Below are positions 48,007-55,257 of a stretch of 64,000 bases of DNA, in pieces. The stretch is from Nitrospirales bacterium (lineage in GTDB: Bacteria > Nitrospirota > Nitrospiria > Nitrospirales > UBA8639). Location of the stretch: assembly GCA_029261295.1 (NCBI GenBank), contig JAJDBP010000033.1, forward strand, positions 1-64,000, in the 5' to 3' direction. Within the stretch, counting starts at the first letter, position 1. Every line of letters starts with the position of its first letter. The notes beneath the pieces are model-generated. The model ran no database searches, was not told the origin of the DNA, and worked only from the letters and a program-made list of their open reading frames with translations. The translations under genes and the position numbers were made by a program.

Positions 48007-49383
48007 ATGACAAATGTTGAAAGATTCTTTCATCCAAGTCTCAAAACAGTTTTGGCCTTAGGATTTGTCCTCTTTGTCACATCGTTTCCTCTGAGGGTTC
48101 CTGAGGCTGAGGCCCTTCCGGCATTTGCCAGAAAATATCAGGTGAATTGCAATGTGTGTCATACTCGGCCACCTCGACTCAATCCCTTTGGAGAGCAATT
48201 TTTAGAAAATGGCTATCAAATGCCCGGAACGGAAGATGGGGGTATTGTTGCCAAGCTCAAATATGGCGATGTCACGTTAGATGACGTCTCGAATTATTTT
48301 GCCGTCTTATTTGGCGTGGATGGAGTTACCAATGTGAACCTCAAGCGAGAAGTGCCAGGCTCTGAAGATCTTACAGAACTTGGTACTCCTGCGATTGTTC
48401 GTCTATTTACCACTGGAACAGTGACAGAAAACGTTGGTTTCTTTGTGGATATGACGTCTATTTTTAGTCGATCGAGTGATGTGGAAATAGGGAGAGCCTT
48501 TATTACCCTCAATAATCTTGGAGGCATGGACTGGGCGCATCTTCGCGTGGGGCGCTTGGATCCTTCTGCCTATTTTTCCATGGCCAGGGGGCGTCCCCAT
48601 TGGGTACCAGTAGGTCCGAAGTTTGCCCCTCCATTCGGGTCATTTGCCACGCCGACCGTGACGCAATGGTCGTTATTTCAGAGTGCCTATGCGTCAAAAT
48701 TCTATGGATTGTTTGATCGGAGTGGCGCGTTTATCATGCCATTCGATTCCACGCTCTATAATTCTCCTGAAGAGGTCGGGATTGATGTCCATGGTCGGCC
48801 TTTTGGAGATTGGTTCCTTTATCAGGTTGGGGTATTAAACGGCGGAAATGAACGGGCAGGGGATTCGAATAATTCCAAAGATTGGTATGTGATGACCCGT
48901 TTTGATTACACCCAATCCGCGTATCTCTCGGTGAATCTTTCAGGATTTGGCTATTTTGGGAACCACAATGCCAAGGTTTTAGGTGGAGCGGATGTGAGCC
49001 GGAGTCGGTATGGGGTTGGCGCGAGGGTGCGCTATAAGTGGTTGGATGTCTATGGGGCTTATACTATTGATCGTGTAACGGATTTACCTACTGGCATGGA
49101 AGCAATATTTGACTCGACCGCTACGGGTGTCACGGTTGAAGCGCATGCCTTGGTTGCTGATCGAGTGTTAATTGGGACACGGTTTGACCACATGGATGCG
49201 GGTGGTTTATTAGCCACTCGCAAAAGTGCCACATTTGTTGGCCTACAGGCCAAATATTATCTTCGCTCGAATATGTGGTTTACGATTCGTGACGATTTCA
49301 ATGTGCGAGATTCGGAAGGTGGAAGGAGTGCGGCTCGCAATTTGCGAAATAGGTTTAATGTGTCGATAGACCTAGTGTTTTAA
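48007..49383 (+). CDS. Monohaem cytochrome-porin fusion (Cyc2-like architecture)
   Basis: The 458-residue protein has a signal peptide cleaved after about residue 36 (PEAEA). Next comes one c-type haem site, C48-N-V-C-H52, in the frame LPAFARKYQVNCNVCHTRPP and then LNPFGEQFLENGY. The rest consists of alternating beta strands with many aromatic and Gly residues, and it ends in SIDLVF, the terminal-Phe signal of outer-membrane barrels. The PxFAR-CxxCH-NPFG pattern followed by a porin is that of the Cyc2-type fused cytochrome-porins that move electrons across the outer membrane. The substrate is unknown. Two exported redox proteins follow. Confidence 0.75.
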   Translation: MTNVERFFHPSLKTVLALGFVLFVTSFPLRVPEAEALPAFARKYQVNCNVCHTRPPRLNPFGEQFLENGYQMPGTEDGGIVAKLKYGDVTLDDVSNYFAVLFGVDGVTNVNLKREVPGSEDLTELGTPAIVRLFTTGTVTENVGFFVDMTSIFSRSSDVEIGRAFITLNNLGGMDWAHLRVGRLDPSAYFSMARGRPHWVPVGPKFAPPFGSFATPTVTQWSLFQSAYASKFYGLFDRSGAFIMPFDSTLYNSPEEVGIDVHGRPFGDWFLYQVGVLNGGNERAGDSNNSKDWYVMTRFDYTQSAYLSVNLSGFGYFGNHNAKVLGGADVSRSRYGVGARVRYKWLDVYGAYTIDRVTDLPTGMEAIFDSTATGVTVEAHALVADRVLIGTRFDHMDAGGLLATRKSATFVGLQAKYYLRSNMWFTIRDDFNVRDSEGGRSAARNLRNRFNVSIDLVF

Positions 49384-49398
49384 AGGAGAATCCTGTTC

Positions 49399-50160
49399 AT
49401 GAAGGCATTTTGGAAAAACCTTACAATGGCTTTTGGATTGGTCCTTGTTTTGACTTCTATCGTGGGAGCTTCTGAAGTCACGGAACATGATATTCAGCAA
49501 GGAAAGAGCATTTATGAACGATCATGTTTGATATGTCATGGGGAATCCGGAAAAGGTGATGGGCCTGCTGCATTTTACAACGCGGCATTTTCCGCTCCAC
49601 GGGCTAGGGATTTCACGGTTGGCAACTTCAAATTTCGTTCAACTGTTTCTGGTAGTCTTCCGTTGGATGAAGATATTTTTCGAACAATTACGAATGGGAT
49701 TCCTGGCACAATGCCCTCGTTTAGTGGATTATCATCAGAGCAACGCTGGCAGGTAGTGGCCTATATCAAAACCTTCTATGGTGGATTTCAGGAAGAAATC
49801 CCCGAGGTCATCAAACTAGCAGGTCTTCCTATCCTTTCTGCCGCCGAAAGCGTGCGACGTGGCAAGATTCTGTTTCAAGATATGGATTGTCATAGTTGTC
49901 ATGGGAGACAGGGGCGTGGCGACGGTAAGGTGGCCTTGGCGGGAGAATTACATGATAGTCGAGACTTGCCAATTTCGCCCAATGATTTGACCAATCCTAC
50001 TGGATGGAAAAATGGCGCAACGGCTAGCGATGTGGTCCGAACACTTTTTACAGGACTAGATGGGACTCCGATGCCTTCCTACGAAAGCCAATTGATAGGG
50101 CATGAAGACGACGCCTGGCATCTAGCCAATTACCTGCTTTCTTTATCCGGCCAAAACTAA
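49399..50160 (+). CDS. Periplasmic dihaem c-type cytochrome
   Basis: The 253-residue protein has a signal peptide (cleavage near residue 24) and two cytochrome c domains. Haem sites are C43-L-I-C-H47 and C164-H-S-C-H168. Probable distal methionines are in GTMPSF (Met105) and GTPMPSY (Met225). GESGKGDGPAAF and GRQGRGDGK after the haem motifs are typical of class I cytochromes of electron-transfer chains. It lies 15 bases after the porin-cytochrome gene, with AAAGGAG upstream, and could take electrons from it. Confidence 0.88.
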   Translation: MKAFWKNLTMAFGLVLVLTSIVGASEVTEHDIQQGKSIYERSCLICHGESGKGDGPAAFYNAAFSAPRARDFTVGNFKFRSTVSGSLPLDEDIFRTITNGIPGTMPSFSGLSSEQRWQVVAYIKTFYGGFQEEIPEVIKLAGLPILSAAESVRRGKILFQDMDCHSCHGRQGRGDGKVALAGELHDSRDLPISPNDLTNPTGWKNGATASDVVRTLFTGLDGTPMPSYESQLIGHEDDAWHLANYLLSLSGQN

Positions 50161-50201: not shown

Positions 50202-50942
50202 ATGGCTTTGATTCAAAATATTTGGGTTCCTGGTCGACAAATCTTCTCACTTTTTTTTAGGAGTGCCATTCTCTCTCTCAGTCTCTGGAGTGGTCATGGA
50301 TTGGCTGCCGTCGAGAATATTTATGCTGGCACACTTGAAGGGGAAGTCCATTTTACAGGCCAAAAACCTCGTCCAACGGTCATGAAAGTCGTGAAAGACC
50401 AGGATCACTGTGGGACTAAGGTCAGTATTCAGACCGTACGGCTTCATGGTGCTTATGGAGCGTTAAGCGATGCAGTTGTGACTGTGGAAGGTATGAGTAC
50501 AAACCCCAAGCCTGAAAAGGCTCAACGTCCGGTCCTCAATATGCGGTGTGCTTTTTCTCCTCGTATAAGTGTGGCACGGAAAGGGCAAGAAGTAGAAGTT
50601 CGAAATCAAGACCCGATCCTCCACAATACCCATATTAAATATGGGAGACGGACCTTTTTGAACGTGGCTCAGGTTCCGAGTGGAAAGCCGATTATTAAAC
50701 GACTAAAAAAATCAGGTCTCCACGCCATTCAGTGTGATAAGCATGTGTTTATGCAGGCCTATCTCCATGTGTTTTCCCATCCTTTTTATACTTTGACGAA
50801 CCAAACTGGAACGTTTCAGATCCCTGATATTCCTCCAGGGACTCATACGATCAGGGTGTGGCATGAAACTTTGGGAATTCTTAAAAAGGTTGTGAAGATC
50901 CCCCAAAAGGGTACCACTCGTATTCAGTTTACCTATCCCTAA
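50202..50942 (+). CDS. Exported cupredoxin-like protein
   Basis: The 246-residue protein has a long signal (to about Ala36) and a cupredoxin-like fold. Candidate copper ligands are His141 or His144 in NQDPILHNTH, Cys178 and His181 in QCDKH, and Met184 in VFMQAY; this His-Cys-His-Met set is that of type 1 copper sites. The C-terminal segment (FQIPDIPPGTHTIRVWHETL) resembles a carboxypeptidase-regulatory-like domain. It follows the two cytochrome genes by 41 bases and may be their redox partner. Two further Cys residues (70 and 116) could form a disulphide. Confidence 0.75.
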   Translation: MALIQNIWVPGRQIFSLFFRSAILSLSLWSGHGLAAVENIYAGTLEGEVHFTGQKPRPTVMKVVKDQDHCGTKVSIQTVRLHGAYGALSDAVVTVEGMSTNPKPEKAQRPVLNMRCAFSPRISVARKGQEVEVRNQDPILHNTHIKYGRRTFLNVAQVPSGKPIIKRLKKSGLHAIQCDKHVFMQAYLHVFSHPFYTLTNQTGTFQIPDIPPGTHTIRVWHETLGILKKVVKIPQKGTTRIQFTYP

Positions 50943-51162: not shown

Positions 51163-54100
51163 ATGAAGAACCCTTTGGTTTGGCTATCACGCAAATGGCG
51201 GGGCAGCGTCGTGTTTCGCATTTCTTCCAGTTTGATCTTTTCGATGGGACTGTTGCTATTAATTGGGGCGGTACTTATTGGTTATGGACAACGTGAGTTG
51301 CTTCAAGAGGCATTTCGGGAGCGAGGCGTGGCGGTGGCCAGAACCTTTTCGACGATCGGGTCTGCAGCTATTTTGGATAATTTGTATCGCTTTCAAGAAG
51401 CCATGTCGCGCTATGCGAAAGACACGGATCTTCAAATATTAGAAATCATTGATGAAGATAATATGGTTATTTCTTCTTTGCAGCCGACCGTCATTGGCAC
51501 CACGATATGGGATGACCCTCATTTAACAGAAGCTAGGCGTATGAGGTCGGAGGTGCAAGCCTTTGTCGACACTCCGGCCAATGGGATTATGTTCGTCGTC
51601 ATTGAGCCTCTATTGGACCAGGGAGAAATTGTGGCGTGGGTTCGGGTGGGGTTTTCGATGAATCGACTGTATCAAAAAGAATTGGAGCTGTGGGTGGGGC
51701 TCATGGTTATGGCTTGTATCTTTATCGGACTTGCCATCTTTGGTGTGAGAAAAGGGCTCTTTCAGATAGTGCCATTTTTACAGGGGATGATTGAAAAACT
51801 TCAGGGAGTGGCAAGGGTTACAGAGAAAGTCATTCCACGCAGCGAGTGGTTTTCTAGTAAGCCAATCCTAAAGGGTTTGATCGAGGAAAATATGGAGGGT
51901 GAGGTTGAGCAATTGGCCGGTGTGGCTAACCGAACGGCTAGCTTATTGGAGGATCGAACCAAAGCTCTCCAGCGGTTAATGGAGGCTCAAGAAACTAAAA
52001 ACCAGGAATTGACCCGTTTGGCTTCATTTCCTGAAATGAATCCTAATCCTGTTATCGAACTGGATATTAAAGGGCAGGTAACTTATGTCAATCCAGCAGG
52101 AAGCCTTGTGTTTCCTGAGCTATCTCATCTGGGTCTTGGGCACCCTGGCTTAGAGAAGGTGGTTAATGCGTTAGAAGCTGTCCTATCTGGCGAGGAAAAG
52201 ATGATTGTTCAAGAGGTTTCACTGTCTGATCGAGTGTTTGAGGCTCGGATTACTCTCGTGGAAGACAGTCACGTATTGCGAATCTATCTTCATGAAATTA
52301 CGCAGCGAAAAATGGCGGAGGAGCAAGTTCGAACAACGGCTCGTGAGTTAGAGATTTATAATCGAGAATTGGCGCAGTCACGTGATGCTGCATTAGAAGC
52401 GGCCACTGCGAAAACTGAATTTTTGGCCATGATGAGTCATGAAATCCGAACGCCAATGAATGGAGTGATTGGGATGACTGGTCTGCTCCTGGAGTCGAGT
52501 TTGGATCCCGAGCAACGAAAAATGACAGAAACGGTTCGTGTTTCTGGGGAAGCTCTGCTCACGATCATTAATGATATTTTAGATTTTTCAAAAATTGAAT
52601 CTGGGAAACTTGAATTGGAAGAGATCCCATTCGATCCCCAAGTCTGCATTGAGGAGGTCTTAGAGTTGCTTGCAGAGAGAGCTAATAGTAAAAACTTAGA
52701 ACTGACAAACTGGATTTTCCAGAACGTGCCGACTACCGTGCTGGGCGACCCAGGGCGATTTCGCCAGGTCCTCATGAATCTTGTGGCCAATGCAATAAAG
52801 TTTACCGAAGTAGGAGAAGTGTCTGTTCAGGTCGCATTAGTCAGTGAAAATGATCATGAAGTGGAATTGGATGTGAAGATTATTGATACAGGAATTGGTC
52901 TGACTCCTGAGCAACAAAGCAAACTTTTCCAATCATTCACTCAGGCGGATGGGTCAACAACTCGGAAGTATGGAGGGACAGGATTGGGCTTAGCTATCTC
53001 AAAGCAACTGGTGGAGGCCATGAATGGCACCATTAGTCTTTTCAGTGAACTTGGCCAGGGCAGCTGCTTCTCTTTGCAGTTTCGGTTTCGTCGGGCAGAA
53101 AGTTTGGCAGAGATTCAGGAACTTCCTCATGTGTTACAGGGACTCAGAATTTGTTGTGTGGATGATAACGAAACGAATCGGATGATCCTGTCTCATTATG
53201 CCCATGCCTGGGAGATGGAACCGGTATTAGCCGAAGGGGCGCAACAGGCGCTAGACATTTTACATGAACAGTTTCAGCAGGGAGCGCCTTGTGATCTGGC
53301 AATTTTGGATATGAACATGCCACAGATGAATGGGATGGATTTGGCAAAAGTTATTAAAGCTGACCCTGATTTGCAGAATCTGAAACTCGTGTTGCTCACC
53401 TCTAGTGGGCTTCGAGGTGATTCGGCTCGATCGAGAAATGTTGGATTTGAGGCATATCTGAGCAAGCCGGTTAGGAAAGGGGATTTGCGAGCAAGCTTGG
53501 AAATGGTGATGACCCATTCAACAACAAATGAAAAACGCGACTCCACAGATAGGAGAGAGGCCGAAGGGTCCATTGGTCAATCAGTTCAGGGTGTACCTAG
53601 GCATATTTTAGTGGTGGACGACCATGTGGTGAACCAACAGTTAGCTCAGATGATGCTAGAACGATTGGGACATCGAGTTGATGTAGTGGGGAATGGGTTC
53701 GAGGCTGTAGACGCCGTGAAGCGGATTCCCTATCAGCTGGTTTTAATGGACTGCCAGATGCCAGAAATGGATGGGTATGATGCTACCAGGACTATTCGGG
53801 AGTGGGAACTGCAAGTAGGGACAAGTAGTCAGGTGAATATGGGATCGAAAATGGGAGAAACTCCCACGCCAGTTGGAACTTTTGACTCCTCACACGACAC
53901 TCTACCCAATCCTCACATTCCTATAGTGGCGATGACCGCTAATGCCATGAAAGGGGATCGAGAGAAATGCCTTTCAGCCGGGATGGATGATTATCTGAGT
54001 AAGCCCATCAAGCATGAAGAACTTGCTGTGATGGTTGCCAAGTGGTTGCCGGCTAAAAAACACGGTGAGGACAGTATTACTGACTCAGTAGATGTATCGA

Positions 54101-54537
54101 ATTCCAAAAAATCCGAGAAACTCATAAAGAAAGAAAAAGATGACGCGTTCTCATTGAATGGCCAGACGGGCGTCTCTGAGCCCATTCTACCCTTGCATCT
54201 GATTGACGAATGGGAGCTTGCTGGGGGCAAGGAGTTTGTGGTGAAGATAGTGACTCAATTTGTCAATGATGCCATGGTGTGTGTTGAGAACATTCAAATC
54301 GCGGTAGATACTCAGCAAGCAAGTGATATGCAGGAAGCAGCTCATGGCTTGAAAGGAATGGCAGCAAATATGGGTTTGCCAGAGTTAGCTGAGTTGGCGC
54401 ATCAAATGGAAATTTTAGCTCGTGAGCAAAATCTCATTAAGAGCCCTTCCCTATTTGAATTGATGCAAAAAGAATTTGTTCGTGTGCAAACTGCTTTGCA
54501 ACAGTTGTTAGATTCAAGCCAGCCTCTTTCCCAATAA
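51163..54537 (+). CDS. Tripartite hybrid sensor histidine kinase (BarA-like)
   Basis: The 1124-residue protein has two membrane helices (about 20-43 and 174-194) around a periplasmic sensor region. A PAS-like segment (about 290-385) and a HisKA domain follow, with phospho-acceptor His426 in [15 protein letters not shown]. The HATPase domain has N-box [11 protein letters not shown] and G-boxes DTGIG and GGTGLGL. Two receiver domains have Asp716 in [12 protein letters not shown] and Asp863 in [15 protein letters not shown], and an HPt domain has His1061 in AAHGLKGMA. This is the full BarA-type phosphorelay in one chain. No response regulator gene is beside it, so its output partner lies elsewhere. 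It follows the redox cluster and might sense redox state. Confidence 0.9.
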
Positions 54538-55257
54538 TTTCACTTATACTTGAATTTCCACCAACCCACTAAGCAATCTTCCCACAGTTTTGGCTGATGT
54601 ATTTCGTAGGCAGCTCTATAAGCTGTCCTAACAGTTACTAAAATTTTTGAATAAAGATTCAGGGAAGTTGATGCTTGAAATGGCATGGTCTTTTTAAGGG
54701 AAGGTGACTCTATCGACTGTTCCCAGAAGTTGGTATCCATCTTTCAGAAACCGTTCTCCAGTTCGATGGAGTCTGGGGGCGCGGGTATACCAGACGGTGC
54801 AATTTGCCTCATATTTTCTGGCGAAGGGGGGTATAGCCTCGGCGTTGGGAATGATAAATAGCTGACTGACCAATACGAATCAGAAAGAGACAAAAATTTG
54901 TGTAGCTATCTCTGAATTTAGCCGCGTGAAATACATGGGATTCAGAGAGAATGTGTAGAGCAGATTGTCAGGCGAAAGACTAGAATAAATATGGATCAGG
55001 TTGGAAACTATGTCAATAAAAAACAAGGCTTTTCTCGCACTCTGCGTTGAGGAAGGAACAGGTAAGAATTGAGGCAGAAAGGTGGCCTTACTGAGTTCAA
55101 GTGCTCAATTTTTTATCGACAAAATTGGCGGATGATTTAGTCGTGAGAAATTATGAGAAAGCCGATGTTGTCATAGGGTCGTTTGGCTTGCCACAGAAGG
55201 GTATTCCTAGTATGCTCGGAGCTAAATCCCCTAATGGTATGGAGGAAAAACGGATTC
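54538..55257. other. 720-base stretch without a recognised gene
   Basis: I see no convincing gene. A minus-strand frame of 66 codons (54540-54740) has no motif and a weak ribosome site. Two short plus-strand frames starting at 54991 and 55010 have about 20 codons each and are not rich in Phe or Tyr, so they are not good attenuator leaders for pheA. The upstream extension of the pheA frame to 55183 is also judged non-coding. The region separates the sensor kinase from the aromatic operon and may hold the pheA promoter, but none is clear. Confidence 0.5.

Follow-up and report, generated by a model that had tools for sequence, protein, structure and literature searches.

Cytochrome-porins of the Cyc2 family, which include A. 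ferrooxidans Cyc2, Mariprofundus Cyc2-PV1 and Leptospirillum Cyt572, are recognized by a published motif around the haem site, AxPxFAR[QK][TY]...CxxCH...PxL (PMC8406198). In the rus operon of Acidithiobacillus, the genes follow the order cyc2-cyc1-cup-coxBACD-rus (PMC10654088). Homologues of Cyc2 have also been reported from Nitrospirota, in Ca. Manganitrophus, Nitrospirales, 'sulfide-mineral' Nitrospirae and tunnel MAGs (PMC9040806, PMC7329443, PMC11442690); they share the phylum and the broad protein type with the protein described below.

Here, we describe a Cyc2-like gene and its neighbours in a 64,000-nucleotide stretch of a Nitrospirales genome (the window; Table 1). Like the named members of the Cyc2 family, its product combines a signal peptide, a single CxxCH within the AxPxFAR[QK][TY] and PxL elements and a fused barrel-like region of about 380 residues, and its gene adjoins one for a periplasmic cytochrome. 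The locus is also reminiscent of the rus operon, with which it shares the first three kinds of gene in equal order (monohaem porin, diheme cytochrome, copper protein). Unlike in the rus operon, the diheme cytochrome is not of the c4 type but of a type found in alt_NxrC_2 and PDB entry 6h5l, the copper protein resembles amicyanin and carries an additional C-terminal domain, and the following genes include a hybrid kinase in place of coxBACD. The porin departs from the Cyc2 family by the replacement of a Phe before PxL throughout its clade as well as by this other type of diheme partner, and it belongs to a Nitrospirales clade of its own, set apart from the plasmid-borne Cyc2 proteins that we compared. 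With Cyc2 homologues in Nitrospirota already known, what looks new is the clade signature and the partner set: a search of the open-access literature, within the text accessible there, returned no description of the signature or of the diheme-cupredoxin-kinase combination.

Table 1. Features of the cytochrome-porin locus in the window. Coordinates are window positions; the basis of each assignment is given in the last column.
Feature	Coordinates	Strand	Basis
Cyc2-like monohaem cytochrome-porin, 458 aa	48007..49383	+	motif, profile, fold, tree
Putative signal peptide, residues 1-35	48007..48111	+	hydrophobic stretch up to ...AEA, by sequence inspection
Haem c domain, ALPAFARKY-QVN-CNVCH-TRP-PRL-NPFGEQFLENGYQMPGT	48112..48231	+	clade alignment
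Predicted outer-membrane beta-barrel, residues ~76-458, terminal Phe	48232..49380	+	low-confidence model
Periplasmic diheme c-type cytochrome, relative of the alt_NxrC_2-like diheme domain	49399..50160	+	alignment, profile
Cupredoxin-like protein	50202..50942	+	H141, C178, H181, M184; amicyanin-type C-x2-H-x2-M loop
Hybrid sensor histidine kinase (sCache-like, HisKA, HATPase, receivers, Hpt)	51163..54537	+	domain search
Remnant of the N-terminal part of a second, decayed Cyc2-like gene	54709..54924	-	CTVWY replaces CxxCH; in-frame stop

The cytochrome-porin and its relation to Cyc2

The initial annotation of this DNA had proposed a fusion of a one-haem cytochrome with an outer-membrane barrel. 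Its reading frame holds exactly (48007-49383 on the forward strand, 458 aa), as do the lone CxxCH at residues 48-52, the PxFAR-CxxCH-LNPFG pattern, with PAFAR just 5' and LNPFG just 3' of the haem site, and the C-terminal Phe; its count of 12 residues between CNVCH and NPFG has to be corrected to six (TRPPRL). Because the protein shares 79% identity with relatives from two other genomes and the family is conserved over its full length across the order Nitrospirales, the frame is, on this conservation, a real gene. Searches of Pfam and of PDB sequences returned zero family matches, and NCBIfam only a partial match to ExtI, the porin of a selenite/tellurite operon (E 0.0043, far below the family cut-off). 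With its 458 residues and an N-terminal signal peptide recognized by eye, the protein falls within the Cyc2 family criterion of at least 365 residues.

The Cyc2 motif occurs in its exact form in the window protein and in 23 of the 26 members of its clade. ALPAFARKY (residues 36-44) supplies A-x-P-x-F-A-R-[QK]-[TY], and PRL follows CNVCH at residues 56-58, a spacing equal to that of three of five plasmid Cyc2s; a distinct H-to-PxL spacing, considered as a trait of the clade, was dropped since plasmid Cyc2s include the same one. The residue directly before PxL is P, V, Q, W, E or A in all 26 clade members and P or A in a same-class group from other genomes, as against Phe in 4/5 plasmid Cyc2s and 12/13 other Nitrospirota homologues (16/18 in all). 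At this position, the earlier impression that the residues flanking the haem differ from those of iron-oxidizer versions proved well founded. Apart from H52, the 26-member clade has no invariant Met or His, and thus no conserved distal haem ligand. Many Asp and Glu of the barrel region are invariant (D185, E282, D286, D292, D347, D355 and D369) and could possibly line a path for metal cations.

A tblastn search of plasmids with the full-length cytochrome-porin gave no matches, and a bait built from a Cyc2 consensus retrieved eight plasmid Cyc2s, five of which (from Acidithiobacillus, Methylocystis, Caballeronia, Ideonella and Polymorphobacter) were taken as references. Profile-profile comparison with these five (hhalign; probability 97.4, E 1.4e-11) gave a match that spans the haem domain and the beginning of the barrel region and takes in little of the barrel itself. 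At the level of profiles, this confirms that the protein is homologous to Cyc2 of Pseudomonadota, chiefly in its haem domain. A tree of 51 sequences, made with a quick method and with the plasmid-borne Cyc2s as references, places the window protein within a clade of 26 Nitrospirales members (SH-aLRT 95), and the branch between this clade and the plasmid Cyc2s measures 2.28 changes per site. Since the absence of Phe before PxL had served to group the 26 in advance, the tree result is that this label corresponds to one clade. By this tree, the window protein is in a single well-supported Nitrospirales clade apart from the plasmid references, in agreement with the suggestion of a separate branch in the initial annotation.

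An AlphaFold model of the cytochrome-porin, built from an alignment of nine sequences, reached a mean pLDDT of 44 and a pTM of 0.45. The pLDDT rises to 60-80 for strands of the C-terminal half, and about 14 strands are visible in total in this low-confidence model, which shows little structure for residues 131-236 of the mature chain. The count is therefore provisional, as set against the 16 strands of the Cyc2 family barrel and the 14-18 named in the initial annotation. Foldseek with the same model gave OmpC, OmpU and OmpF-type porins as top matches (best E 2.9e-4), which supports a barrel and, at such model quality, stops short of proof. The Cyc2-type architecture is thus supported by the motif, by profile homology and by the best fold matches of a crude model, with the profile evidence lying mostly in the haem domain. 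A strand count from hydrophobic alternation was too noisy and was discarded.

Partner genes

The porin gene is followed after 15 bp by the diheme gene and, 41 bp further on, by the cupredoxin-like gene, with the kinase gene after it. This arrangement recurs in relatives: a diheme c-type cytochrome gene comes next in 25/25 clade members with downstream sequence and in 7/7 same-class proteins from other genomes, and an amicyanin-like cupredoxin gene is next but one or nearby in most clade members. Within the downstream sequence examined, a full-length diheme of the clade type was found for 0/13 other Nitrospirota homologues. The module is flanked by housekeeping genes: upstream are genes recognized from their sequences as folD- and panB-type, and downstream are those for prephenate dehydratase and further steps of aromatic amino-acid metabolism. 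Two side observations concern the cupredoxin-like genes. At L073:574-2022, one of the 13 other Nitrospirota homologues, a Cyc2-like protein that has Phe before PxL, is followed directly, 55 bp downstream, by a cupredoxin-like gene and by no diheme in the stretch examined, hence by a different partner set. A further cupredoxin-like gene lies behind the first at L008:13385-15593 and is split into two overlapping frames, by a frameshift or a sequencing error.

The profile of the diheme cytochrome matches chain B of 6h5l in the PDB (E 6e-58), which we take to be the diheme protein that partners an HAO-like enzyme of Kuenenia. This partner is listed as kustc0457 in Kuenenia (PMC6423088). Met105 is invariant and Met225 nearly so, and from the alignment both are likely distal haem ligands. 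The sole other strong homologue in the genome is a 634-aa protein that joins a diheme domain to an EB_dh domain (E 2e-51), and its diheme domain shares 38% identity over 234 residues with the operon diheme. The gene for this protein is clustered with those for two c-type cytochromes and two bd-like oxidases (L086:3243-15195, G000:C9); two proteins with FGE-sulfatase domains are encoded in between. The 634-aa protein in this setting matches the description of alt_NxrC_2, which in Nitrospira moscoviensis is highly transcribed during nitrite oxidation and has been proposed to anchor NXR (PMC6606698). Both 6h5l chain B and the diheme domain of the alt_NxrC_2-like protein are homologous to the operon diheme, which is free-standing, without the EB_dh part of the alt_NxrC_2-like protein, and is paired with a porin instead. 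Diheme proteins encoded next to plasmid Cyc2s are c4-like by inspection and match the operon diheme profile weakly (E 1e-5 to 1e-7 in a search of seven sequences), so that the pairing of porin and diheme appears to have been made separately.

In the cupredoxin-like protein, the four residues of Table 1 are invariant in eight homologues and have cupredoxin spacing, which makes a complete predicted type-1 copper ligand set. Its profile matches are to amicyanin and CuA domains and are weak (E 0.0009-0.03), and its AlphaFold model has a pLDDT of 45, with pseudoazurin and amicyanin among the top fold matches, none of them significant. The low confidence of this model and of that of the porin is probably due to inputs of 7-9 sequences. 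The hybrid kinase is the probable regulator of the module; in relatives, a kinase gene is frequently retained near the porin gene.

Proposed electron route and alternatives

The contig belongs to an assembly of 4.06 Mb, and the nearest relatives of the cytochrome-porin among named records are Nitrospirales and Nitrospirota MAGs. The genome encodes NxrA, a full-length match to the nitrite oxidoreductase subunit A structure 7b04 (E 0), and has six genes for bd-like oxidases, and a search of it for COX1 (haem-copper oxidase) found no match; its gene make-up is that of a canonical nitrite oxidizer, in line with PMC6606698.

We propose that the cytochrome-porin is a Cyc2-type inward electron conduit into the respiratory chain of this nitrite oxidizer, with Fe(II) as the likeliest donor, a reading to which we give about even chances. 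A small reduced solute, most likely Fe2+, would enter the barrel from outside and reduce the single haem c at its periplasmic mouth; the electron would pass to the co-encoded periplasmic diheme cytochrome and from there, through the cupredoxin or other soluble carriers, to bd-like oxidase complexes that would also serve nitrite oxidation, and the kinase would set when the module is made. We favour this route because the protein combines the Cyc2 motif and profile homology with fold matches of a crude model to porins and a constant diheme neighbour, because the cupredoxin ligand set is invariant and the gene order resembles cyc2-cyc1-cup, and because the diheme resembles the alt_NxrC_2 domain in a genome with NxrA and bd-like oxidases, in which COX1 was not found. 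Counted against it are the low-confidence barrel model, a Cyc2 profile match mostly confined to the haem domain, the absence of Phe before PxL in the clade, and the accessory nature of the genes, which several near-complete genomes within the genus lack. To our knowledge, no Nitrospira is known to grow on iron, which also weighs against it. So does the state of the family as a whole: iron oxidation has been demonstrated for a cluster 1 Cyc2, for A. ferrooxidans Cyc2 and for Cyt572 but for no further member, and much of clusters 2 and 3 is termed unverified by the authors (PMC8406198).

More broadly, we put forward as a tentative possibility that some canonical nitrite-oxidizing Nitrospirales have a second, metal-based lithotrophic entry, built from a Cyc2-related porin and a diheme that is like that of the respiratory complex of nitrite oxidation and not of the c4 type, with electrons from nitrite and electrons from Fe(II) or Mn converging on the same bd-like oxidases. 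The locus points to extracellular metals as a possible additional electron source for some nitrifiers. If so, nitrification and metal oxidation would be joined within one cell by a shared electron chain. This would matter in the deep sea, in tunnels and in sediments, where Nitrospirales live within reach of reduced metals. The porin/diheme/cupredoxin gene set and the one-residue signature could also serve to separate the clade from iron-oxidizer Cyc2 in surveys, where Cyc2 homologues are counted as iron oxidases.

The same inward conduit could take another donor, as suggested in the initial annotation, for instance Mn(II)/Mn(III), Cu(I) or a reduced organic shuttle, with the altered residues next to the haem tuning its potential to that donor. 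The loss of Phe before PxL, common to the whole clade and the same-class group and found alongside a different diheme type, would fit such a shift. Three of the genomes with relatives are Nitrospirales MAGs named OFTM, which we take to be from Oslofjord tunnel biofilms, where both iron and manganese oxidation have been described. A Cyc2 has also been proposed to act in the Mn(II) oxidation of Ca. Manganitrophus (PMC9040806). We consider another donor unlikely, as the sequence has no feature that identifies a donor and Fe(II) is, in the literature consulted, the sole one shown for tested Cyc2 proteins (PMC8406198), which is why we prefer it.

Flow in the opposite direction is a still less probable reading, in which the haem would reduce extracellular Fe(III), Cu(II) or another oxidized solute for nutrition, detoxification or anoxic survival. 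Sequence is neutral as to the direction of electrons, and the weak, partial ExtI match of the barrel would suit this role. The diheme, however, resembles the entry point of an O2-respiring nitrite chain, and the partners are a diheme c of the His/Met type and a cupredoxin, which are usually high-potential carriers; a search for an MtrB/PioB homologue found none. We rate slightly lower again a haem-plugged porin that transports or senses a solute outside respiration, with the kinase sensing the same solute: a large sensor kinase adjoins the module here and a kinase is often nearby in relatives, and a haem lacking an invariant distal Met or His may bind a ligand besides carrying electrons, but the constant diheme and the frequent copper-protein neighbours are electron carriers. 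That the protein forms no barrel and is a soluble or surface cytochrome with a beta-rich domain, as the poor structure model might allow, is very improbable given Foldseek matches that are mainly outer-membrane barrels, the homology to Cyc2 and a C-terminal Phe or Tyr in most clade members.

Paralogues and a decayed second copy

The Cyc2-like family has multiplied within the genus, since several paralogous copies occur in single genomes (G005, G006, G011 and G015, at loci L003, L004, L007, L008, L036 and L037), four of them in G006. In G005, loci L004 and L007 look like the two ends of a single locus, with two convergent modules arranged round one kinase gene. In the window genome, the second module appears to be lost apart from a remnant of its porin gene on the reverse strand (AIPPFARKYEANCTVWYTRAPRLHRTGERFLKDGYQLLGT, with a stop upstream). 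At the DNA level, the remnant is 74% identical to the N-terminal part of the L007 copy, which is intact; both have the same orientation towards the prephenate dehydratase gene, and the 3' end of the kinase gene also matches L007.
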